Assembly: GCA_017503075.1 (NCBI GenBank)
Contig: JAFVTU010000014.1
Span: forward strand, 1 to 61,861
DNA length: 61,861 nucleotides
Direction of reading: 5' to 3'
Source: Paludibacteraceae bacterium
GTDB lineage: Bacteria > Bacteroidota > Bacteroidia > Bacteroidales > Paludibacteraceae
Position numbers and translations under genes: made by a program. The first letter of the stretch is position 1; each line of letters opens with the position of its first letter. The notes below the pieces were generated by a model. It did not search any database, was not told the origin of the DNA, and worked only from the letters and a program-made list of their open reading frames with translations. Positions 49,523 through 58,980 of the stretch are shown piece after piece.

Positions 49523-49556
49523 AAAAGCCACCTAATCCGTAGATTAGATGGCTTTT
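49523..49556 (-). terminator. Terminator after rng
   Basis: Stem AAAAGCCA-c-CTAATC (49523-49537) with GATTAG-a-TGGCTTTT (49542-49556), loop CGTA. Placed 11 bp after the rng stop and abutting the next promoter. Confidence 0.88.
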
Positions 49557-49566
49557 TAGGTTAATT

Positions 49567-51144
49567 TTACTTTTCTGACTCCTTGTTATCATTACCTGCT
49601 GTTGGGATATCTAATGCTTGCCCGTCTGCTGTGTAGAACTGGGTCTGCAGCATTCCCAAACTTTGGTTTTCTATGGTATGGATTCCATATTCTAGTCGCC
49701 ATTGCCATTTTTGGCTCCAAATGCCTTTGGAAATATAGGCATAGATAAATGGATGCACATGCAGGCGTAATCCTCTGCCATACTGCCGTGTCATTGCTTC
49801 GATCTGCTCCTGAATTTGATCTGTAAAGAGGATCGAAGGTTGCACTTTTCCTTTTCCCATACATGTCGGACAAGTCTCCATCACTTGCATTTCCACCGCT
49901 GGGCGCACGCGTTGGCGTGTGATCTGCATTAGTCCGAACTTACTGAGTGGCAATATGTTATGTTTTGCCCTGTCGTGCTCCATCAGTTCGCGCATATGAT
50001 CATATAGCGCTTGTTGATTGGTTTTGTCATCCATATCAATGAAATCCACGACAATGATTCCACCAATATCCCTTAATCGCAGTTGATGCACAATTTCGTC
50101 TGCAGCAAGCATATTGAAATGAAATGCATTCTGTTCTTGGTCTTCATAGAGTTTCTTACTACCGCTATTCACATCGATTGAGAATAGTGCCTCTGTTCGA
50201 TCCATGATGAGGTATCCGCCTTTTTTGAATCCTACGGTACGACCTAGTCCCGTTTTCATTTGACGCGTAATGTCAAACTTGTCAAATATAGGTTGCTCGC
50301 CTGTATAGTGCTTGACTACTTTCGCCGATTCTGGTGCTATGAGATCCAGGTACTGTTTGATTTCCTCATACACTTCTTGATCATTAACATAGATACTCTG
50401 AAAGTGTGGCGAGAAGATATCTCGTATAATCCCTATTGTGCGTCCCAGTTCTTCGCTAATCAGGCTAACTGGCTCTTTGCGCTGCAACGTACGCACAGTG
50501 TCTTCCCATCGTTTGACTAGCACACGCAGTTCGTTGTCCAGTTCCGCCACTCGTTTATCCTCGGCCACGGTGCGTACAATCACTCCAAAGCCGTGTGGCT
50601 TGATGGATTGCACCAATTGTTTGAGGCGTCCTTTCTCAGCTTGCCGACTGATTTTGCTGCTGACCATCACCTTGTCAATAAAAGGTATCAACACAAAATT
50701 ACGTCCAGTAATGGATATCTCAGCAGTCAATCTTGGCCCTTTGGAGTTGATTGGTTCCTTACTCACCTGTACCAAAATGGTATCTCCTACTTTCAAGAAA
50801 TCAGCGATTTGTCCTTCTTTACCACAAGCAGGCTGACGCTCGATTTTGTGTAACTCAGGTATGCGTCTTCGGTCCGAAACGAGTTTGGTGACATACTTCT
50901 GCTGTGTTAGAAACTCTGTTCCTAAATCAAGGTAGTGCAGAAAAGCATCTTTCTCATGTCCTACATCCACAAAAGCTGCATTAAGAGCTGGCATGATTTT
51001 CTTGACCCGTCCATAATAGATATTTCCCACCGCAAAGGTGTCCTCACCGCGTTTTTCGCGATTGACCTCCATAAGGCGATCGTCCTCAGTCAGCGCAATA
51101 GCAATCTCTTGTGGTGTAACATCCACAATTAATTCGCTTTTCAT
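49567..51144 (-). CDS. rng: Ribonuclease E/G family protein (RNase G)
   Basis: Endoribonuclease for rRNA and mRNA processing, 525 residues. S1 RNA-binding domain with YYGRVKKIMPALNAAFVDVG (about 48-67) and KDAFLHYLD. The 5'-sensor and DNase I-like catalytic region holds the two metal-binding Asp residues in VVDFIDMDDKTNQ (about 355-367). The zinc-link C-P-T-C is at about 425-428. No long RNase E-type scaffold tail. It starts at MKSELIVDVTPQE, the usual N-terminus. The upstream terminator at 51186-51239 separates it from the HU gene, but no obvious promoter is visible in the short gap. Confidence 0.96.
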   Translation of the reverse strand: MKSELIVDVTPQEIAIALTEDDRLMEVNREKRGEDTFAVGNIYYGRVKKIMPALNAAFVDVGHEKDAFLHYLDLGTEFLTQQKYVTKLVSDRRRIPELHKIERQPACGKEGQIADFLKVGDTILVQVSKEPINSKGPRLTAEISITGRNFVLIPFIDKVMVSSKISRQAEKGRLKQLVQSIKPHGFGVIVRTVAEDKRVAELDNELRVLVKRWEDTVRTLQRKEPVSLISEELGRTIGIIRDIFSPHFQSIYVNDQEVYEEIKQYLDLIAPESAKVVKHYTGEQPIFDKFDITRQMKTGLGRTVGFKKGGYLIMDRTEALFSIDVNSGSKKLYEDQEQNAFHFNMLAADEIVHQLRLRDIGGIIVVDFIDMDDKTNQQALYDHMRELMEHDRAKHNILPLSKFGLMQITRQRVRPAVEMQVMETCPTCMGKGKVQPSILFTDQIQEQIEAMTRQYGRGLRLHVHPFIYAYISKGIWSQKWQWRLEYGIHTIENQSLGMLQTQFYTADGQALDIPTAGNDNKESEK

Positions 51145-51185
51145 ATGTCAAATAATTATCTTAGGGGCTCGCTTGCCCCAAATTA

Positions 51186-51239
51186 AAAAAAATGCCTTGT
51201 GGCAACCTATTTGCGCCCAAATAGGTTATGACCACAAAG
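51186..51239 (-). terminator. Long-stem terminator after the HU and small basic protein genes
   Basis: Outer stem (51196-51202 with 51232-51239, one bulged A) and inner 10-bp perfect stem AACCTATTTG (51204-51213) with CAAATAGGTT (51218-51227). Minus-strand T-run is the complement of 51185-51192. Confidence 0.9.
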
Positions 51240-51259
51240 CCGTAGTAATGCGTCAAAGC

Positions 51260-51349
51260 TTACTTATGCTTATGACGATTCTTGCGCAAACGTTTTTTAC
51301 GTTTGTGAGTAGACATTTTATGTCTTTTGTGCTTTTTACCGTTTGGCAT
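51260..51349 (-). CDS. Very small basic protein (29 residues), probable ribosomal protein
   Basis: MPNGKKHKRHKMSTHKRKK followed by RLRKNRHKHK: more than half Lys, Arg or His, without acidic residues. Short proteins with the same opening (MPNGKK-K-R-H-K) are conserved across Bacteroidota. I believe this corresponds to the small ribosomal protein named bL38 from the Flavobacterium johnsoniae ribosome structure, but I cannot verify the match here. It starts 20 bp after the HU gene and ends before a strong terminator, so the two are co-transcribed and probably highly expressed. Confidence 0.75.
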   Translation of the reverse strand: MPNGKKHKRHKMSTHKRKKRLRKNRHKHK

Positions 51350-51369
51350 AATTGTAATGTATTAATAAA

Positions 51370-51642
51370 TTATTTTAATAATTCTGCAAAGCTATCAGCC
51401 GCTTTGAAAGCTGGAATCTTGTGCTCAGGAACGAGGATTGACTCATTCTTGGTAATGTTGCGTGCTACCTTAGCTGCACGAGTTTTGGTAGCAAAGCTAC
51501 CGAAACCACGGAGATACACTGCTTCGCCGTTAGCTACTGTCTTCTTGATGTTGCACATTGCCGACTCTACTACATTCAAGATTGTAGTCTTGTCATAACC
51601 AGTTTGGATAGCAATTGCATTAACGAGTTCTGCTTTTGTCAT
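51370..51642 (-). CDS. HU family DNA-binding protein
   Basis: Nucleoid protein that bends DNA, 90 residues, full length. N-terminal helices MTKAELVNAIAIQTGYDKTT, then the beta-arm domain with GFGSFATKTRAAKVARNITKNE, in which the typical R-x-G-R-N-P arm motif is modified to AARNITKNE-like. C-terminus IPAFKAADSFAELLK. Own promoter with a 75-nt leader; co-transcribed with the small basic protein. Confidence 0.94.
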   Translation of the reverse strand: MTKAELVNAIAIQTGYDKTTILNVVESAMCNIKKTVANGEAVYLRGFGSFATKTRAAKVARNITKNESILVPEHKIPAFKAADSFAELLK

Positions 51643-51721
51643 AATGATTTTATATTTAATAAGTTATACTTTTTATCTTCAAAAGTGAGGCTCATCGCCT
51701 ACAAAAAACCGAAATCGGGTG

Positions 51722-51752
51722 CAAAGATACTATAAATAAATGAATTATGCAA
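51722..51752 (-). promoter_or_regulatory. Promoter of the HU gene
   Basis: Minus strand -33 TTGC (51752-51749), 19-bp spacer, -7 TATCTTTG (51729-51722). Confidence 0.78.
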
Positions 51753-51799
51753 GAAATTGGGCAAAAAATATTGTATTTTTTTTACGAATAGCAGAAACT

Positions 51800-51831
51800 T
51801 TTGCATATTTACTAAAAAAGTAGTAACTTTG
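51800..51831 (+). promoter_or_regulatory. Promoter of mutY, close to a leaderless start
   Basis: -33 TTTG (51800-51803), 20-bp spacer, -7 TAACTTTG (51824-51831). The ATG at 51843 lies only 11 bp after the -7 box, so the message would have a leader of about 5 nt (or 11 nt for the ATG at 51849). Confidence 0.75.
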
Positions 51832-51842
51832 TAGTCCGTATT

Positions 51843-52925
51843 ATGAATATGAAATTGCTACATAATGAGCTGATCGATTGGTACGAACTCAACAAACGTA
51901 TCTTGCCTTGGCGTGAGACGGACGATCCGTATAAGATTTGGATCTCGGAGATTATTCTTCAACAAACGCGCGTGGCTCAGGGTATGGAATATTACATGCG
52001 CTTTGTGGAGCGATTCCCTAATATTCAGTCGCTTGCAGATGCCGAGGAGGACGAGGTATTGCTCTATTGGCAAGGATTGGGGTATTACTCACGGGCGAGG
52101 AATTTGCATAAGGCGGCTAAGATTGCTGCAAGTTCAGGATTGTTCAACATGGTTCAAAATAGTTCAACTTTGTACGAACAACTGCGTTCACTACCTGGAA
52201 TTGGCGATTATACGGCGGGAGCGATTGCTTCTTTTGCTTTTGACTTGCCCTACCCTGCCTTAGATGGTAATGTCTATCGTGTTCTCTCGCGACTATACGA
52301 CTGCGAGATTGCTTTCGACACTACACAAGGCAAGAAGCATTTTAGGAAGTTGGCAGAGGAGTTGCTAGACAGAGAGCGCCCACGTTTGTTCAACTCTGCT
52401 ATTATGGAGCTTGGAGCGTTGCATTGTGTCCCTACTGCGCCTGATTGCCATACTTGCCCGCTCAATACGTGGTGTAAGGCGCTGGCTAACAATACGGTAG
52501 AACTATTGCCCGTGCGCAAGCCTCGTCCGAAACTACGCGAGCGGTACTTAGAGTACACCATATATATTACGCCCGAACGGACAACGCTAATTCACCAGCG
52601 CAAAGGGAATGATATTTGGAAGCACCTATATGAATTTCCAGTTCAGGAAATTCATAGTTTAGAGGACGCCCATTCGGGCTACAGTTTAAGTGCACCCCAT
52701 AACGCTGCGAGCGTTATCGGAGCCCCCGCAGAAGTTAAAGGCGAGAAGATATTGGAGCTGACGCACGTGCTTTCGCACCAGAAGTTGCATGCGAGGTTCA
52801 TAATAAAAAACGTGCCAGAACTTCCGAAGATTCCTGACACGGTGGTGGTACATTTGTCCGATTTGGATAATTATGCGTTTTCGAGACTGACGCTGAGGGC
52901 AATAGAGTTCCTAGCGCAAAGGTAG
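51843..52925 (+). CDS. mutY: A/G-specific adenine glycosylase
   Basis: Removes adenine paired with 8-oxoguanine. 360 residues: helix-hairpin-helix LPGIGDYTAGAIASFAF (about 119-135) with catalytic Asp in YPALDGNVYRV, WQGLGYYSRARNLHKAA, and the [4Fe-4S] motif C-x6-C-x2-C-x5-C (CVPTAPDCHTCPLNTWC, about 197-213). The C-terminal NUDIX-like 8-oxoG recognition domain follows (from about 235), with VLSHQKLHARF. Two repeat-derived insertions: LFNMVQNSSTLY (about 100-111), from GTTCAA decamers, and about 30 residues around EDAHSGYSLSAPHNAASVIG (about 273-300), from palindromic repeats in the recognition domain. Confidence 0.95.
   Translation: MNMKLLHNELIDWYELNKRILPWRETDDPYKIWISEIILQQTRVAQGMEYYMRFVERFPNIQSLADAEEDEVLLYWQGLGYYSRARNLHKAAKIAASSGLFNMVQNSSTLYEQLRSLPGIGDYTAGAIASFAFDLPYPALDGNVYRVLSRLYDCEIAFDTTQGKKHFRKLAEELLDRERPRLFNSAIMELGALHCVPTAPDCHTCPLNTWCKALANNTVELLPVRKPRPKLRERYLEYTIYITPERTTLIHQRKGNDIWKHLYEFPVQEIHSLEDAHSGYSLSAPHNAASVIGAPAEVKGEKILELTHVLSHQKLHARFIIKNVPELPKIPDTVVVHLSDLDNYAFSRLTLRAIEFLAQR
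52142..52171 (+). repeat. GTTCAA decamers inside mutY
   Basis: GTTCAACATG, GTTCAAAATA, GTTCAACTTT: exactly three decamers (30 bp, 10 codons). The same repeat is non-coding at 55131-55243. Confidence 0.82.
52631..52717 (+). repeat. Palindrome cluster inside mutY
   Basis: Three perfect palindromes in 87 bp: TGAATTTCC (52631-52639) with GGAAATTCA (52646-52654); GCCC-ATTC-GGGC (52668-52679) inside AGAGGACG...CTACAGTTTA, the same frame as the pyr spacers; and ATAACGCT-GCG-AGCGTTAT (52699-52717). Confidence 0.85.
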
Positions 52926-52947
52926 CGCAAGGATAGCGCAAAAGTGG

Positions 52948-53775
52948 TTATTTCTGGAACTTACCGACTAGTTTAATTGCCCAGAACACGAGCCAGTCGG
53001 GAGTGTGCTTGAGCAATGGCGTTGCCAGCCAATTGAGGAAACCTGGAGTGTCGGCTTTCTTGCCGCGGAACAGTTTCTTCAGAGCGCGCTTAACCAATTT
53101 CTCAGGTGGAATAGATACCGTCAAGTTGACTGCCAAACGACGCAAGTGAGGTGCCAAGCCAAACAAAGCTGTATCTACAGCCCCTGGAGCCATCACGGTG
53201 ATATTCACGCCCTTAGGTTTGAACTCGTACCAAAGAGACTTGGAGAAATTATAGATAAACGCCTTGGTAGCATTGTAGGTTTGGATGCCTGGCATAGCCA
53301 TCCACGCAGACATAGAGGACATATTGAGGATATAGCCCTTTTGGCGTGGTTTGCGGCAAATCTTTTGCGCTTGTTCTTCTACGGTGAGTTGGCGGTTGAT
53401 CATATCCTCGCCAAAGAGACGAGTGAGTTTAGCCACCGTAATCATATGCAGGTTGAGCATCAGGTCAATGCGCTTCATACTGGTCTCGCAGTAGGGATTG
53501 AAGAAGAACACACCTGCGTTATTGATAAGGATATCCACTACGAGGTTGTTGTCCTTGCAGTATTGATGCAATTGCTCCGCTGCGTCTTGTTTGCTGAGAT
53601 CGGCGTATAGCGGAATAGTCTTTACAGCATATTGAGCAGCCAAGTCGGTGGCTACCTGATTGAGTTCTTCCTGCTGGTTACTAACCAACAGAATATCCGT
53701 ATGATAATCGCGCGCAAGTTGGGTGGCATATTGAAGTCCAATACCCGATGATGCGCCAGTAACGAGTGCAAGCAT
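52948..53775 (-). CDS. Short-chain dehydrogenase/reductase, candidate hydroxysteroid dehydrogenase
   Basis: NAD(P)-dependent oxidoreductase, 275 residues. Cofactor motif TGASSGIG (6-13), NNAG (85-88), catalytic Ser 153/154, Tyr 167 and Lys 171 (SS ... YNATK). The residue after the first strand cannot settle NADH versus NADPH. A C-terminal extension of about 40 residues has hydrophobic parts (LATPLLKHTPDWLVFWAIK), like membrane-associated members of the family. Third gene behind a 5-alpha-reductase homologue and an OYE-type reductase, which makes a 3-hydroxysteroid or bile-acid substrate plausible (inference from context; the family itself is broad). Confidence 0.88.
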   Translation of the reverse strand: MLALVTGASSGIGLQYATQLARDYHTDILLVSNQQEELNQVATDLAAQYAVKTIPLYADLSKQDAAEQLHQYCKDNNLVVDILINNAGVFFFNPYCETSMKRIDLMLNLHMITVAKLTRLFGEDMINRQLTVEEQAQKICRKPRQKGYILNMSSMSAWMAMPGIQTYNATKAFIYNFSKSLWYEFKPKGVNITVMAPGAVDTALFGLAPHLRRLAVNLTVSIPPEKLVKRALKKLFRGKKADTPGFLNWLATPLLKHTPDWLVFWAIKLVGKFQK

Positions 53776-53784
53776 GTTTCTTTA

Positions 53785-53889
53785 AGTTGAAAGTTTATAG
53801 TTGAAAGTTTAAAGGCAGGACGGCTATGCCGCAGTACTTCGCCTATAACCTATAGCGTAGCGTCCTATAGCAAAGAGGCGTCCTATAAC
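53785..53889 (-). repeat. Heptamers and GGACGC-type palindromes between the OYE and SDR genes
   Basis: AGTTGAA, AGTTTAT, AGTTGAA, AGTTTAA, AGGCAGG (53785-53819), then CGGC-TAT-GCCG (53821-53831). Degenerate units follow that on the minus strand read TATAGGACGC-n-GCTATAGG, ending at the OYE stop. Confidence 0.8.
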
Positions 53890-55131
53890 CTACTTTTCTG
53901 GATACCACATTTGTTCGTACTTGAGGGCTTCTTTCTTGAGGTATTTAGGGATATCCTTATCGCACTCGTGGCACTTCATATCAAGTGTGTACATACGCGC
54001 TACGCAATAGTTAGAGCGTTTACATTCAGAGTGATATTGCTCCTCGCGCATCTTATTCACGAAGTCAGTATCGCGCACCAAAGCGTGTCCAATCTGCACG
54101 AAATCAAAGCCCTCAGCCAGAGCTGTCTCTGCGTTCTCACGTCCCATGATACCACCGACATAAATAAGTGGCATCTTGAGTGCTTTGCGGAATTGCTTAG
54201 CCGTATCGAGGAAGAAGAGCTCTTTGAAAGGCACAGTAGGAATCATCAAATGACCCACGAAGCGAAGCGCAAGACGCAACCACCAGAATGACCATGGGTT
54301 CATATAGTGCGCCAATGTCTTGATTGGCATAGCTCCACCCATGACGGTGAAAGGTGCTTTGCTCACAAAGCCTGCGGTGAGTACGAGTGCGTGTACACCA
54401 TGCTTCTCAATCTCTTGTGCGATGCGGATGCACTCCTCTACTTTCAAACCCGACTTGAAGCCATCGTACATATTGGTCTTGACTACGACCGCCATATCAT
54501 CGCCTGCATGCTCCATCACCTCCGCCATCACTTCGTTCATGAAGCGCATACGATTCTCCAACGAACCACCATACTCATCGCGACGATGGTTGGTATATGG
54601 AGAAAGGAATTGCGAAATCAAATAACCATGACCTGCATGAATCTCTACGCAGTCGAAACCGCACTCACGGCAGAAGTCCACCGCATGACCAAACGCCTTG
54701 ACAATCTCCTTGATTTCTTCTTTCTTCAGTGCGCGATGCAAAGTTGGCGAATAGAGATTGAAACCTGTACTAGCACCAACTGGCATACATTTGCACGTAT
54801 AGAAGTGGGTCATATTACCGCAGTGCCCAAGCTGAATACTTGCTTTCGCACCCTCTGCGTGGATGCCATCAGTGAGGCGTTTGAGGTCTTCCTTGATTTC
54901 GTCGTGGATATAGAGTTGACCGTCGAAAGAGACACCCGAACGAGTGACAGAGCAGTATGCCACCGTGGTCATCGCTGCACCACCGCGTGCTACGGCAGTA
55001 TGATAGTTGTAAAGATCTTGACTAGGTTTGTTGCCGTATGCCATGTTCTCGAACGCAGCACTACGGATGGCGCGGTTGCGCAAAGTAATAGGACCGAGTT
55101 TATGCTCGGTAAAAAGGAGGTTATTATTCAT
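53890..55131 (-). CDS. Old Yellow Enzyme-type NADH:flavin oxidoreductase, candidate steroid reductase
   Basis: FMN-dependent ene-reductase, 413 residues, TIM barrel only. Seen: LGPITLRNRAIRSA (N-terminal FMN strand), QLGHCGNMT, the signature EIHAGHGYLISQFLSPYTN plus RRDEYGGSLENRMRF (about 170-205), and YVGGIMGRENAETAL with VQIGHALVRD for FMN phosphate. The C-terminal FAD/NAD domain of BaiCD/BaiH- or dienoyl-CoA-reductase-type enzymes is absent. A Cys-rich tail (C-x5-C and C-x2-C, about 374-398) could hold a metal or Fe-S cluster. It lies between a 5-alpha-reductase homologue and an SDR, so a 5-beta-reductase or enone reductase role on steroids or bile acids is plausible but unproven. The start codon directly abuts a decamer array. 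Confidence 0.9.
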   Translation of the reverse strand: MNNNLLFTEHKLGPITLRNRAIRSAAFENMAYGNKPSQDLYNYHTAVARGGAAMTTVAYCSVTRSGVSFDGQLYIHDEIKEDLKRLTDGIHAEGAKASIQLGHCGNMTHFYTCKCMPVGASTGFNLYSPTLHRALKKEEIKEIVKAFGHAVDFCRECGFDCVEIHAGHGYLISQFLSPYTNHRRDEYGGSLENRMRFMNEVMAEVMEHAGDDMAVVVKTNMYDGFKSGLKVEECIRIAQEIEKHGVHALVLTAGFVSKAPFTVMGGAMPIKTLAHYMNPWSFWWLRLALRFVGHLMIPTVPFKELFFLDTAKQFRKALKMPLIYVGGIMGRENAETALAEGFDFVQIGHALVRDTDFVNKMREEQYHSECKRSNYCVARMYTLDMKCHECDKDIPKYLKKEALKYEQMWYPEK

Positions 55132-55243
55132 TGTTCAAAATTGTTCAATGTGGTTCAAAATTGTTCAATGTGGTTCAAAATTGTTCAATGTGGTTCAAAA
55201 TTGTTCAATGTGGTTCAAAATTGTTCAATATGGTTCAATGTTG
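55131..55243 (-). repeat. 20-bp (2 x 10) tandem repeat forming the leader of the OYE gene
   Basis: About five and a half copies of TTGTTCAATGTGGTTCAAAA (each two GTTCAA decamers; 55131-55243), nearly identical to one another. The array begins at the last base of the start codon, so the complete translation start region is repeat sequence. Then AGCCC-ATA-GGGCT at 55271-55283. Confidence 0.93.
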
Positions 55244-55292
55244 AACGCGAAGCGCTGAACCATACTGAACAGCCCATAGGGCTATTGAACTA

Positions 55293-56081
55293 TTAGTATA
55301 TAAACGGAATAATACGTTTCAGTTTCTTTTCGTCGAACTCGTCTGCGAATTCTGCTTTATAGCGGTGGTAGATAGAGTTCGCACGAGGAACGAGGTTGCA
55401 GCATGAGAACCAGAAGAAGCTCAAACCAGCCCATGACCATGTGAGAATAGCAAAGCCAAGCCACTCGGTGATTTCCCCAAGATAATTGGCACTAGTCACA
55501 TACTTGTACATACCTTTCTTAGGTAAATAGTGATTAGTGTCACCAGGTTTGCGGAGGTGACGGATTACATGGTCAGAATGCATATTGATAATCCATCCGA
55601 TAAGGAAAATAACCGCACCTATGATAAAACGAGGATCAAGTAGCCAGCTTGCAGCATATGGCGCATAGAAAGGTGCTAAGTGGAAGAGCCAATAGCCTTG
55701 AATAAAACCATTTATCAAATTCCATATCACTGATAATCCCATGATTACCAATGGCATTTTACTATTCCCCTTGAGCAAAAATGGGAATACAAATGAGCGC
55801 TGGAAATAGTGGAATTGGAATATCAAGAAAAATATCAAATAAGGCAAATCAAACTTCACCGGCGATGTAGCCCATAGGTATAGCATTACCACAAATACAG
55901 GCATCTCCATTAGGCACCAGCCCACTTTGTTATTAATAGCAGGTCCCCATTTCTCGGTACGCATCTTGCCATAGCCAGCATCCACAAAATATAGGGCAAC
56001 AAATACCACCAACCCCACTAGGGCTAGCACAAAGAGAAAATTATGAAATGAGTCTAGAGTAGATATTCCAATCATAAGCAA
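55293..56081 (-). CDS. 3-oxo-5-alpha-steroid 4-dehydrogenase (steroid 5-alpha-reductase) family protein
   Basis: Integral-membrane NADPH-dependent enoyl reductase, 262 residues, with about six or seven hydrophobic segments. The C-terminal half has the family signature: HSDHVIRHLRKPGDTNHYLPK, MYKYVTSANYLGEITEWLGF-type (residues about 190-212), PRANSIYHRYKAEF and a basic end. Eukaryotic members reduce the 4,5 double bond of 3-oxo steroids. In gut Bacteroidales, homologues have been linked to allo-bile acid formation. First gene of a three-gene unit with an OYE and an SDR, with its own promoter. A fatty or sterol-like substrate other than bile acid is possible. Confidence 0.9.
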   Translation of the reverse strand: MLMIGISTLDSFHNFLFVLALVGLVVFVALYFVDAGYGKMRTEKWGPAINNKVGWCLMEMPVFVVMLYLWATSPVKFDLPYLIFFLIFQFHYFQRSFVFPFLLKGNSKMPLVIMGLSVIWNLINGFIQGYWLFHLAPFYAPYAASWLLDPRFIIGAVIFLIGWIINMHSDHVIRHLRKPGDTNHYLPKKGMYKYVTSANYLGEITEWLGFAILTWSWAGLSFFWFSCCNLVPRANSIYHRYKAEFADEFDEKKLKRIIPFIY

Positions 56082-56106
56082 TACATTTTGGGTTGCTAGG
56101 CTATGA

Positions 56107-56122
56107 GGCGATAAGGCGATAG
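56107..56122 (-). repeat. GGCGATRA octamers in the 5-alpha-reductase leader
   Basis: Two units GGCGATAA and GGCGATAG downstream of the promoter. The same octamer is translated in sdaA (7557-7588). Confidence 0.7.
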
Positions 56123-56141
56123 ACTAGAACCAATTAGGCGA

Positions 56142-56173
56142 CAAAGTTACAAAGTTTTTTTTAATTATACAAA
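56142..56173 (-). promoter_or_regulatory. Promoter of the 5-alpha-reductase/OYE/SDR operon
   Basis: Minus strand -33 TTTG (56173-56170), 20-bp spacer, -7 TAACTTTG (56149-56142), just after the EamA gene stop. Leader of about 55 nt. No other clear promoter lies between the three genes. Confidence 0.78.
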
Positions 56174-56179
56174 TAATTC

Positions 56180-57109
56180 TTAATTATTGTTATATTTTTC
56201 GTATCTTTGGCTTATAAATAAGCCCACTATAATAAGAAATATACCAACTAATTTCCAAATCGGCAGTATCTCGCCAAATATTATCCACATTAGTATGGCA
56301 GTAAACACTGCGCGCACATTATTAAATACATTCGCGCGCGTGACACCTATCTTGCGTACCGTGTAGCAGAAGAGCACGAAGGCCGCTACCGAGGCAAAGA
56401 TGGCTAGATAGAGGACGGCTAGGAGGGGTGTAGCTTGGTGTAGGGTGTAGAGCGTAGAGTGTAGGGTGTGGAGCAGTTGGCCGGCCTCGGTGAATCCCCA
56501 TAGCGGATAGAACATGCATAGCGCAAAGGCCTGCACATAAAAGACAATAGACAAGGGCGAATAGCGGCTGGGTATACGACGCAAAACTATAGAATAACTC
56601 ACTGACATACTGACAGTTAAGAAAGCCAACAAAACGCCCCACGGGTTGCCCAAAGCAAAGTTATTGGAACCGACCAGCAACAGTATCAACATACCTACTG
56701 TAGATAGCAATATACCGATGATATTATTGCGCGTGATTTTTTCGCGAAGCAAAACTAGAGCAAATATAGGTGCCAACACGGGCTGGGTACTCAGCAGTGC
56801 CTCAGCTATCGTAGGAGAATCAAAACTCTGATAAGTATATGTCTCAAAAATGAAATACAAGAATGGCTGAAACAATCCCCCTAATATAAATAACGGAATA
56901 TCCTGCTTATCAGCCAATTGCAATCCCAATATCTCATTTTTGCGAAATACTAGCCCTAACGCTAGCATCAGCAATACGGCTATCGTAAAACGCACTACTA
57001 TGAGCGTTAGCGGAGGAAAAACATGCAAAGCTTCTTTGACTGCAATCCCCGCTCCTGCCCAAATCAACATAGCTGTGATAATGGCTATGTATGGTAGTAG
57101 TTTTTTCAC
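56180..57109 (-). CDS. EamA/DMT family transporter
   Basis: 309 residues, ten predicted transmembrane helices arranged as two EamA halves (about 5-140 and 155-300). The first half opens LPYIAIITAMLIWAGAGIAVKE; the second ends with a cytoplasmic basic tail. EamA proteins usually export metabolites or amino acids; direction and substrate are unknown. A repeat-derived loop HTLHSTLYTLHQATP (about 212-226) sits between the helices. The ATG overlaps the GH3 stop by four bases (ATGA), a sign of translational coupling with the amide synthetase. Confidence 0.9.
   Translation of the reverse strand: MKKLLPYIAIITAMLIWAGAGIAVKEALHVFPPLTLIVVRFTIAVLLMLALGLVFRKNEILGLQLADKQDIPLFILGGLFQPFLYFIFETYTYQSFDSPTIAEALLSTQPVLAPIFALVLLREKITRNNIIGILLSTVGMLILLLVGSNNFALGNPWGVLLAFLTVSMSVSYSIVLRRIPSRYSPLSIVFYVQAFALCMFYPLWGFTEAGQLLHTLHSTLYTLHQATPLLAVLYLAIFASVAAFVLFCYTVRKIGVTRANVFNNVRAVFTAILMWIIFGEILPIWKLVGIFLIIVGLFISQRYEKYNNN
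56427..56475 (-). repeat. GTAG-type decamers inside the EamA transporter gene
   Basis: GTGTAGCTTG, GTGTAGGGTG, TAGAGCGTAG, AGTGTAGGGT, GTGGAGC: degenerate units of 10 bp on the plus strand, the CTACAC family on the coding strand. They fill an extramembrane loop. Confidence 0.65.
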
Positions 57110-58980
57110 TGCTTTATCGAGTGGTTCTTATTGCGCTCAGCGCGGCGTCCTTGGCGAGTCTCATTGCGTTCAGCACGCGCTTTTCTGCGACGAGTAATAT
57201 TAGTATCAATATTATCCGCTAGAGTCATAATCTTATCAGACAATGTCTCAAGGCGTTCAATCTGGTCAAATTTGCGACGACGCTTATCGTCTTGCATCAA
57301 CAGGTTAAACTTGAATTGACCATCGCGGAAACCATCACGCAAACAAGCGGCCTTAAAGCGTGCATAGGCATTACTGAGCAAGATATGTGCTTGAGGTTCT
57401 TTGAGACGGAATGAGGAGCGTTTGGACTCGTATTCGTTATTGATTTCCTGCAACTTACGATCAACCACTTTGGTAAATTCGTCAGCCGTTTGTTGATCAA
57501 CATCCTCGTCAACAAACTCGTAGTAAAAGTGGTATTTCGATTCGCGCACATCGGCAAAACCAACAAAGAACTTGGTCTTGACACCCATCAATTCTTCGGT
57601 CTTATGTACGGCATCAATGAATTGTGGTTCGTAGAGTTTTTCTCCCGTCATAGACACAATACCATTGACCTTAGATACCATGTGTACGGTAGGTGTATTG
57701 TAGAACTTGCCTCCCACCTCTACCAGGTCGTTCATGTTGTAGCGGAAGAGTCCAGAATATGTAGTGACATAGGCGCAGTATCGTTTGCCCTTTTCGAGCT
57801 CGTAGATTTGCAAGAAATGCTTATGTGGCTTATCTAGTTCGCTCTCTTCCACAAACTCATAGTAGTGGAAATGCGGGAACAGCACCGATTCGTTGGTTTC
57901 ATCCAGCGAGAATCCAAAGCGACATTCTGTAGCAATATAGCCCAATTCCTGATACATGGTTTTGTCCCAATTGAATTGGTCCAGATACTTCTCCATATAT
58001 ATCTTGGTGTTACCACATTTCCATGTCGAAAGCAGTTGCAACCATGGCCAGAAGTGCTTTGGTTCTAATTTACCATGCTCCGTCAGCAACTGACGCAACT
58101 CCTCTGCACGCTCTGGTAGAGGCGACATATACGCATGCAACTCCTCGCGGATATATTCTGAAATATCGAAGTTCCAGCTCAGTGTACCCTTCTCTATATC
58201 GTCAATCATCTCCTCTGTATTCTCATTGAGCGTACGCAGCAACTCAAGTATAGTAGATGGATTAGCCGTCGCCCACAATGTCACATCACGATGTTGCATA
58301 GCCAGTCGCATCAGTGTGTAGTTGCGCGCCGCATAATCATCAATCGACATCACACATGCAGGTGCTGTATAATGCTTCTTAATGATTTTTGGCACATCAC
58401 GTACCAGCACACCACTCACCGACCCAAACACTGTACCATCTGGAGCGTATCCCTCCAATTCCTTTCCCACGGTGGTAAATAGGTGTCCTCCGAAAATACG
58501 GCTACGATGAGTAATAAAATTCCATATCCACACGTGGGTCATCTTGCCATATACATCCTTGAGATACTTATGGGTCATAGGCACCCATTTAGGCTCAGAA
58601 GTAGTACCCGAAGTAGTGGCATACATATCTGGTTTGCCAGGGAAGAGCACATTCTCCTCGCCATTCTTATGACGTTCCACATATGGTCGCAATGGCTCAA
58701 AACTATCATTTACGGGCACATACTGGCGATACAAACGGAACAAGTCTTCTGTGGTGGTAGCAGATAGAATGCGATCAAAATGATGTTCTCTGCCGTAAAC
58801 TGTATCGCGCGAAATAGTTAAAATATCTCGCAACGTTTTTTCCGCAGCATGCTTGGGATGACGATTCCAATAGTTCAAGCGCAATCGTTGCGTACCACCT
58901 ACCAAGCATAATGCTGTGTTAATCAACCAAGGATATGGCAATGCTCTTCCTTGGTTATCTAAGTATGTTTTCTTTTTCAT
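57106..58980 (-). CDS. GH3 family acyl-acid amide synthetase-like protein
   Basis: Adenylating enzyme of the ANL-like GH3 family, known in plants for joining amino acids to jasmonate or auxin; bacterial substrates are mostly unknown. 624 residues with the ATP-binding motif YATTSGTTSEPKWVPMTHK (about 121-139), VSMTGEKLYEPQFIDA and YVTTYSGLFRYNMNDLVEVG (ATP/substrate motifs 2-3), and the C-terminal lid (about 500-600). The last 25 residues are a basic RRRKARAERNETRQGRR tail outside the family domain. It overlaps the EamA gene by 4 bp, which suggests that a conjugate is made and then exported (inference). Confidence 0.9.
   Translation of the reverse strand: MKKKTYLDNQGRALPYPWLINTALCLVGGTQRLRLNYWNRHPKHAAEKTLRDILTISRDTVYGREHHFDRILSATTTEDLFRLYRQYVPVNDSFEPLRPYVERHKNGEENVLFPGKPDMYATTSGTTSEPKWVPMTHKYLKDVYGKMTHVWIWNFITHRSRIFGGHLFTTVGKELEGYAPDGTVFGSVSGVLVRDVPKIIKKHYTAPACVMSIDDYAARNYTLMRLAMQHRDVTLWATANPSTILELLRTLNENTEEMIDDIEKGTLSWNFDISEYIREELHAYMSPLPERAEELRQLLTEHGKLEPKHFWPWLQLLSTWKCGNTKIYMEKYLDQFNWDKTMYQELGYIATECRFGFSLDETNESVLFPHFHYYEFVEESELDKPHKHFLQIYELEKGKRYCAYVTTYSGLFRYNMNDLVEVGGKFYNTPTVHMVSKVNGIVSMTGEKLYEPQFIDAVHKTEELMGVKTKFFVGFADVRESKYHFYYEFVDEDVDQQTADEFTKVVDRKLQEINNEYESKRSSFRLKEPQAHILLSNAYARFKAACLRDGFRDGQFKFNLLMQDDKRRRKFDQIERLETLSDKIMTLADNIDTNITRRRKARAERNETRQGRRAERNKNHSIKQ

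Follow-up and report, generated by a model that had tools for sequence, protein, structure and literature searches.

What does a bacterium use a steroid 5-alpha-reductase for when it keeps the gene beside those for an Old Yellow Enzyme (OYE) and a short-chain dehydrogenase (SDR)? We asked this of a three-gene set at positions 52948-56173 of contig JAFVTU010000014.1 (assembly GCA_017503075.1) from a Paludibacteraceae bacterium. The whole 61,861-nucleotide stretch analysed is referred to as the window; it forms contig C4 in a genome of 30 contigs and 2.06 Mb. An earlier note on this DNA, made from its letters, had proposed a steroid or bile-acid transformation locus, and our comparisons partly support that interpretation as a whole. 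We consider it probable that the operon is a set for remodelling the A/B rings of bile acids or steroids, with secondary bile acids as the main substrate. The set appears to belong to a known type of Bacteroidales steroid-remodelling cluster, and its occurrence in Paludibacteraceae would be what is new.

Three complete open reading frames (ORFs) of the same direction lie within 52948-56173 on the minus strand, in the transcription order 5-alpha-reductase (5AR), OYE and SDR. The features of the locus are as follows, with FMN standing for flavin mononucleotide.

56142-56173, minus strand: Bacteroidota-type promoter (TTTG ... TAACTTTG) that precedes 5AR, an exact pattern match.
55293-56075, minus strand: steroid 5-alpha-reductase family membrane protein (5AR), 260 residues from the ATG, PF02544 (Steroid_dh) at 4e-42.
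55133-55238, no strand: 20-bp direct repeat between 5AR and OYE, 5.3 copies with 98% matches, from repeat detection.
53890-55131, minus strand: single-domain OYE/FMN ene-reductase of 413 residues, a proposed 3-oxo-delta4-steroid 5-beta-reductase/dehydrogenase, PF00724 (Oxidored_FMN) at 1.1e-57.
53962-54024, minus strand: Cys tail of the OYE, C370-x5-C376-x10-C387-x2-C390, from alignment with relatives.
52948-53775, minus strand: classical short-chain dehydrogenase SDR1 of 275 residues, a proposed 3-hydroxysteroid dehydrogenase, PF00106 (adh_short) at 1e-34.

These Pfam matches bear out the family calls of the earlier note for all three products, and the ORFs agree with its description of three same-strand genes behind one promoter at 56142-56173.

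We examined how constantly these genes keep company across the order. Among 198 genomes, 93 had some OYE match and 25 had one with at least 49% identity, one of the latter holding its OYE as two contig-edge fragments. All 25 OYE-bearing genomes carried a strong 5AR (a PF02544 match at E 1e-20 or better), compared with 15 of the 173 others (Fisher 1e-21, kinship ignored), and in 20 of the 25 the 5AR adjoins the OYE on the same contig within about 550 bp. The scan of genome_contigs gave at least 595 stretches, at least 566 of them relatives, from which the best 80 named loci were analysed; because the best 80 were kept, near kin dominate the host-site counts reported below. Among these 80 fetched loci, 5AR was present in 60 (within 400 bp of OYE in 56), an SDR1-type gene in 53 and all three genes in 49. 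The 20 loci lacking 5AR come from genomes with a full-length 5AR elsewhere (18), a weak match (one) or none (one). These linkage counts place the pairing of 5AR and OYE far beyond chance: the pairing is conserved, and physical linkage is sometimes lost. Within the window's own family, 48 of 120 genomes have 5AR matches, 44 of them at E below 1e-40, including two that are just 36-38% identical and three with in-frame stops. In G041, a genome of this family, the 5AR falls outside the window's 5AR group and the OYE inside the window's OYE group, which suggests that the two genes may at times have had separate histories; this and the other trees were built by a quick method on subsets of 52 OYE, 41 5AR and 33 SDR rows, and many of their forks are open. 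G210, the genome of L037 and one of the 18 with a full-length 5AR outside the locus, holds this unlinked 5AR with two in-frame stops, either a decaying copy or an assembly error. In two distant Bacteroidales, an extended SDR is followed directly by a 5AR homologue (L111:2342-4083 and L112:14243-16031). The extended SDR of L111 scores 197 bits with HpnA and 164 bits with SdmB, both below the cut-off; about 9 kb from the 5AR homologue of L111 a 4-Cys OYE adjoins a geranylgeranyl-reductase-like flavoprotein, and L112 looks likewise by eye. A virus origin was also considered and rejected, as 19 stretches in viral_contigs matched a search pattern and none was a relative.

The 5AR resembles enzymes of the SRD5A1/2 type. 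Its closest solved relatives are PbSRD5A (7c83, 197 bits; 40% identity over 241 positions) and human SRD5A2 (7bw1, 157 bits; 37% over 228 positions), and the very-long-chain enoyl-CoA reductase 22of is a weak one (5e-8, 36 bits). PbSRD5A is described as a tested progesterone 5-alpha-reductase in the relevant passages of PMC7815742. Residues E59 and Y92 of the window's 5AR (262-residue numbering) match the catalytic E57 and Y91. Both residues are conserved throughout a set of 83 sequences, made up of the window and 82 others after exclusion of partial or stop-bearing rows. Of the eight NADPH-binding residues of human SRD5A2 listed in the part of PMC7815742 that deals with them, seven are kept (N160, D164, R171, N193, E197, R227, Y235), while H231 is replaced by Ile.

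The OYE is likewise uniform in its core. All 105 sequences (the window and 104 others, with the fragment L025 and the stop-bearing L100 excluded and the refetched copies L001, L111-L116, L119 and L120 not counted) have E28, H165, H168, Y170, Q174 and R183, and all of them likewise have C370, C376 and C387. L100 has its in-frame stop within the Cys tail and may be a decaying copy or an assembly error. The Cys motif after the barrel, placed as in FadH, is presumably a site for a [4Fe-4S] cluster of the kind that FadH and trimethylamine dehydrogenase carry. The second cluster Cys, which is S373 in the window, is never Cys in these 105 sequences, being S, V, A, T or K. It is present in five more distant Bacteroidales homologues (L026-L030) and, by eye, in homologues from Tsukamurella, Sphingobium and Burkholderia; the Rhodococcus homologue has N there, so the loss happened elsewhere too. 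An extra cysteine, C390, occurs in 82 of the 105. It is typical of Paludibacteraceae-type sequences, being missing in L047, L087 and L092 and present outside them in L018, and is absent from all seven rows of the Phocaeicola/Parabacteroides branch. In the OYE tree the window's protein groups with other Paludibacteraceae-type sequences (23 rows in the clade) inside a large Bacteroidales group, and the homologues of Rhodococcus, Tsukamurella, Sphingobium, Burkholderia, L026 and L027 branch apart (open forks, some long-branch joins). The best solved matches are single-domain OYEs, e.g. 3krz and YqjM. To us the protein appears related to Fe-S flavoenzymes, with a single domain and a cluster site that is broken or has been rearranged. 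For its electron supply, the simplest guess would be that NAD(P)H passes electrons straight to the FMN, on the model of YqjM.

We also compared the OYE with two characterized types. It shares with BaiCD and FadH an FMN domain with a conserved Tyr and the Cys motif after the barrel, but differs in having no FAD/NAD domain and in missing the second cluster Cys. Membership in BaiCD was rejected: the model score is 204.9 against a cut-off of 825, the Pyr_redox domain is absent and the second cluster Cys is replaced. The earlier note had likewise set the OYE apart from BaiCD; the lack of a C-terminal flavin/NAD domain, which a Pfam search of the protein did not find, and the presence of the Cys tail both stand, but the single-domain form is ordinary in this cluster. 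Clostridium innocuum ci2350 is a steroid hormone 5-beta-reductase with N166 and S171, according to the portion of PMC12238238 that treats it. The window's OYE shares its family and a proposed 5-beta chemistry. Assignment to the ci2350 type was rejected, as alignment on the shared Tyr puts G169 in place of N166 and Q174 in place of S171; position 169 is G in 87 sequences, A in 15 and S in 3, and Q174 is found in 105 of 105.

In the third gene, Ser154, Tyr167 and Lys171 of SDR1 are present in 66 of 66 aligned sequences, the window included. The window holds SDR1 only; a second type, SDR2 (e.g. L117:7967-8824), joins or replaces it elsewhere. Of the best 80 named loci, 16 have SDR2: in 13 of them it accompanies both 5AR and SDR1, in the other three 5AR without SDR1. 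It also occurs in several further genomes beyond these loci. A close SDR2 was not found in the window's own genome (best match 27%). A natural guess is that SDR1 and SDR2 would serve opposite faces, 3-alpha and 3-beta. In a table of PMC12692668, Parabacteroides distasonis is listed for 3-alpha- and 3-beta-hydroxysteroid dehydrogenase (HSDH), and not for 5AR activity. Because P. distasonis has SDR1 and both HSDH activities listed, SDR1 may be 3-alpha or 3-beta.

These families form a set that has been described before. Sections of PMC10382948, PMC11271093 and PMC12697870 describe a cluster of 5AR, a flavin oxidoreductase and 3-beta-HSDH for the formation of isoallolithocholate (isoalloLCA) in human gut Bacteroidales, and as far as these reviews go the link made in the earlier note between 5AR, a 5-beta-reductase-type flavin oxidoreductase and 3-beta-HSDH holds. 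The window's locus has the same three enzyme families, clustered, in the same bacterial order, and differs in family and hosts, in the extra Cys390 of its OYE and in having SDR1 in place of the SDR2 of Phocaeicola massiliensis. In the window, as in its relatives, the 5AR gene is clustered with those of a flavin oxidoreductase and of an SDR. In Phocaeicola massiliensis OY726067.1, the 5AR (55% identity) adjoins the OYE (59%) and is followed by SDR2; in P. distasonis NZ_OY725754.1, the OYE (56%) adjoins SDR1 (39%) with efflux genes upstream, and 5AR was not found in the fetched stretch. The 5AR and OYE of P. massiliensis and the OYE of P. distasonis share clades with those of the window, these comparators not being the assayed enzymes. 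5AR and OYE agree in this with named gut Bacteroidales; the third-place SDR differs in P. massiliensis, and because of that difference SDR1 may be of another type than the assayed 3-beta-HSDH. P. distasonis is given as lacking the 5AR gene in the relevant part of a chicken-isolate survey; together with the review table this agrees with its OYE-SDR1 pair without 5AR. Both comparator records, L117 (OY726067.1) and L121 (NZ_OY725754.1), are filed as plasmids and carry chromosomal-looking genes, L117 having ORFs like those of the tricarboxylic acid cycle by eye and L121 the annotated genes for ribosomal protein L25 and pth, so they are possibly chromosome pieces filed as plasmids. A report of the set in Paludibacteraceae or rumen genomes was not found in literature searches that were weak and matched loosely. 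The isoalloLCA cluster work in Bacteroidales is reportedly that of Sato 2021 and Li 2021.

In the scheme that we infer for substrate, reaction direction, stereochemistry and the role of the SDR, the OYE would use its FMN to interconvert 3-oxo-delta4 and 5-beta-3-oxo steroids, acting on the 4,5 bond. The membrane 5AR, with NADPH, would convert the 3-oxo-delta4 steroid into the flat 5-alpha-3-oxo steroid, and the SDR would reduce the 3-oxo group to the 3-hydroxyl, beta in the published scheme.

Co-transcription of the three genes is likely from the layout of the locus. The Bacteroidota-type promoter pattern (consensus TTTG-N16-24-TANNTTTG) occurs 14 times in the window, where shuffles gave an expectation of 2.1, and a scan of the minus strand over 49526-56141, operon interior included, gave no further match to it. 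A sigma-70-type scan was discarded as uninformative (20 sites found, 17.9 expected in shuffles). The 5AR-OYE gap measures 161 bp and the OYE-SDR gap 114 bp; the first exceeds its counterpart in 16 of the 19 other loci measured for it, the second in 11 of 13. No terminator-like site was found in either gap. The 5AR frame runs over 55293-56081 from a TTG start, of which the alternative ATG at 56075 is more likely the true one. Upstream of 5AR lie EamA and GH3 genes on the same strand; the EamA gene stops 7 bp short of the promoter, so read-through from it is possible. At the other end, 22 bp separate the end of the SDR from that of MutY (51843-52925, plus strand). This neighbourhood recurs: GH3, PlsC-like and EamA genes stand directly upstream of the set in L089, L096, L102, L105 and L110, and the region 56180-58980 of the window retains the GH3 and EamA of it. 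The 5AR-OYE spacing in L031-L034 is 45-88 bp, leaving no room for the 20-bp array there, and a looser TTGAAC repeat pattern has five more matches at four other places in the genome.

We turn to the substrate. Host-site labels were derived from record titles, and the sampling labels of metagenome-assembled genomes (MAGs) do not prove habitat; in our reading, 'RUG' stands for a rumen series and 'AS..BPME' and 'Seed' for digester or sludge. The nearest kin with a named host are Paludibacteraceae MAGs (L032-L035) from the cecum and rectum of buffalo and deer, with OYEs 86-97% identical to the window's; that of L031 is 98% identical, with no host in the record title. In L033 the gene order is GtrA-GH3-EamA-5AR-OYE-SDR, then MutY, HU and Rng. 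For this organism, with its closest relatives living in the hindgut, secondary bile acids appear the likeliest natural substrate. Strong CBAH-family matches occur in 16 of the 25 OYE-bearing genomes, the window's own included, compared with 13 of the 173 others (kinship ignored). The protein of the own genome (G000:C26:32420-33364; L118:1852-2979) has by eye a signal-peptide-like start. A CBAH search of 39 named genomes, picked from the 80 by sampling label, gave strong matches in none of 24 foregut, abomasum and digester genomes versus 4 of 15 hindgut genomes (Fisher p 0.017, kinship ignored), the hindgut relatives with such a gene being L032, L033, L035 and L037. Weak, half-length matches appeared in 11 genomes, five hindgut, five foregut and one abomasum.

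Several observations weigh against the assignment to bile acids or steroids. The OYE falls short of the BaiCD model cut-off and on alignment lacks the hormone-type residues, and the own CBAH-family protein scores below the cut-offs for bile-salt hydrolase (197.7 against 350) and penicillin V amidase (212 against 600). The genome of L034, a near hindgut relative, gave no CBAH match. SDR1 stands here where P. massiliensis has the other type, SDR2, and an own-genome SDR1 paralogue (C26:17532-18116, 39% identical) falls within the SDR1 group of the tree (open forks), which puts the orthology of SDR1 between families in doubt. Two Odoribacter isolates are also given without 5AR in what the chicken-isolate survey states of them. 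In the 5AR, three NADPH contacts of PbSRD5A are changed (R34 to K, Y177 to H, T219 to S), and the QEY signature reads MEY in 83 of 83 sequences, M58 taking the position of Q56. In human SRD5A2, Q56A/L abolishes activity, as stated in the section of PMC7815742 on these mutants. MEY therefore means either that this variant works or that the substrate is a different one. Among its carriers is a Phocaeicola, the genus in which B. dorei is now classified. B. dorei is reported active in the relevant lines of PMC10382948, and for this reason MEY in a Phocaeicola would favour the working variant.

The strongest competitor keeps the chemistry and changes the steroid: the set would act on delta4-3-ketones from plant sterols, saponins or host hormones, with bile acids incidental, a possibility that we take seriously and hold to be clearly the less probable one. 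Bile enters below the stomachs, and 5AR is present in 14 of 19 foregut-labelled loci (strong CBAH in 0 of 19, weak half-length matches in 5 of 19), in 12 of 16 RUG-series loci and in 2 of 3 apparent digester loci; the occurrence of the set in foregut-labelled and apparent digester genomes speaks against a purely bile-acid role, and the absence of strong CBAH from all 24 foregut, abomasum and digester genomes points the same way. Rumen microbes alter added bile acids according to the pertinent part of PMC11193847, which indicates capacity, not normal exposure. On the other side stand the hindgut origin of the window's nearest kin, the strong CBAH-family gene in the own genome and four of its relatives, the limited weight of sampling labels as proof of habitat, and the published Bacteroidales sets, which act on bile acids as far as the reviews cited above describe them. 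We find it unlikely that the genes serve an endogenous lipid or isoprenoid pathway, in which 5AR and SDR would work on the cell's own enone or enal like SRD5A3 and the partner dehydrogenase with which it works, or as the enoyl reductase of fatty-acid elongation. Human SRD5A3 is named a polyprenol reductase in the passage of PMC7815742 concerned, the enoyl-CoA reductase 22of is weakly related to the 5AR, and the set adjoins GH3, PlsC-like and EamA genes in five relatives; in a distant relative, moreover, a 4-Cys OYE is paired with the geranylgeranyl-reductase-like flavoprotein (152.1 bits, cut-off 158.8). Among the solved relatives compared, the match of 197 bits to PbSRD5A and 157 to SRD5A2 against 36 to the enoyl-CoA reductase argues otherwise, and the patchy distribution of 5AR in the family (the 44 of 120 genomes) is not what a role in core lipid synthesis would suggest.

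Broad ene-reductase activity is common among OYEs, and the single-domain character of the best solved matches would suit a general remover of reactive feed enones with no steroid role. Such a generalist detoxifier would not be expected to have a steroid-reductase-family gene for company in all 25 genomes that carry the OYE, and we regard this reading as very improbable. Remodelling of the A/B rings, chiefly of secondary bile acids, is the reading that we prefer. As a tentative and rather doubtful history, the set may have arisen for plant or microbial sterol enones in bile-free foregut or digester Bacteroidales and been turned on bile acids later by gut lineages. In the same proposal, the OYE would have lost one [4Fe-4S] Cys clade-wide and, as is typical of Paludibacteraceae-type sequences, gained another three positions past the last Cys, so that four Cys would form a rearranged site. 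We know of no described counterpart for the metal, if any, of such a site.

If the bile-acid assignment is true, formers of isoallo bile acids would extend beyond the Bacteroides, Parabacteroides and Odoribacter of the human gut to a large group known chiefly through MAGs from livestock. This group could help to account for the isoalloLCA that is reported for the cow large intestine in the relevant part of PMC9750977. With the carriers from foreguts, it becomes possible to test which substrate was the original one, and the cysteine pattern of the OYE together with the alternating SDRs would provide simple sequence marks for sorting such sets.

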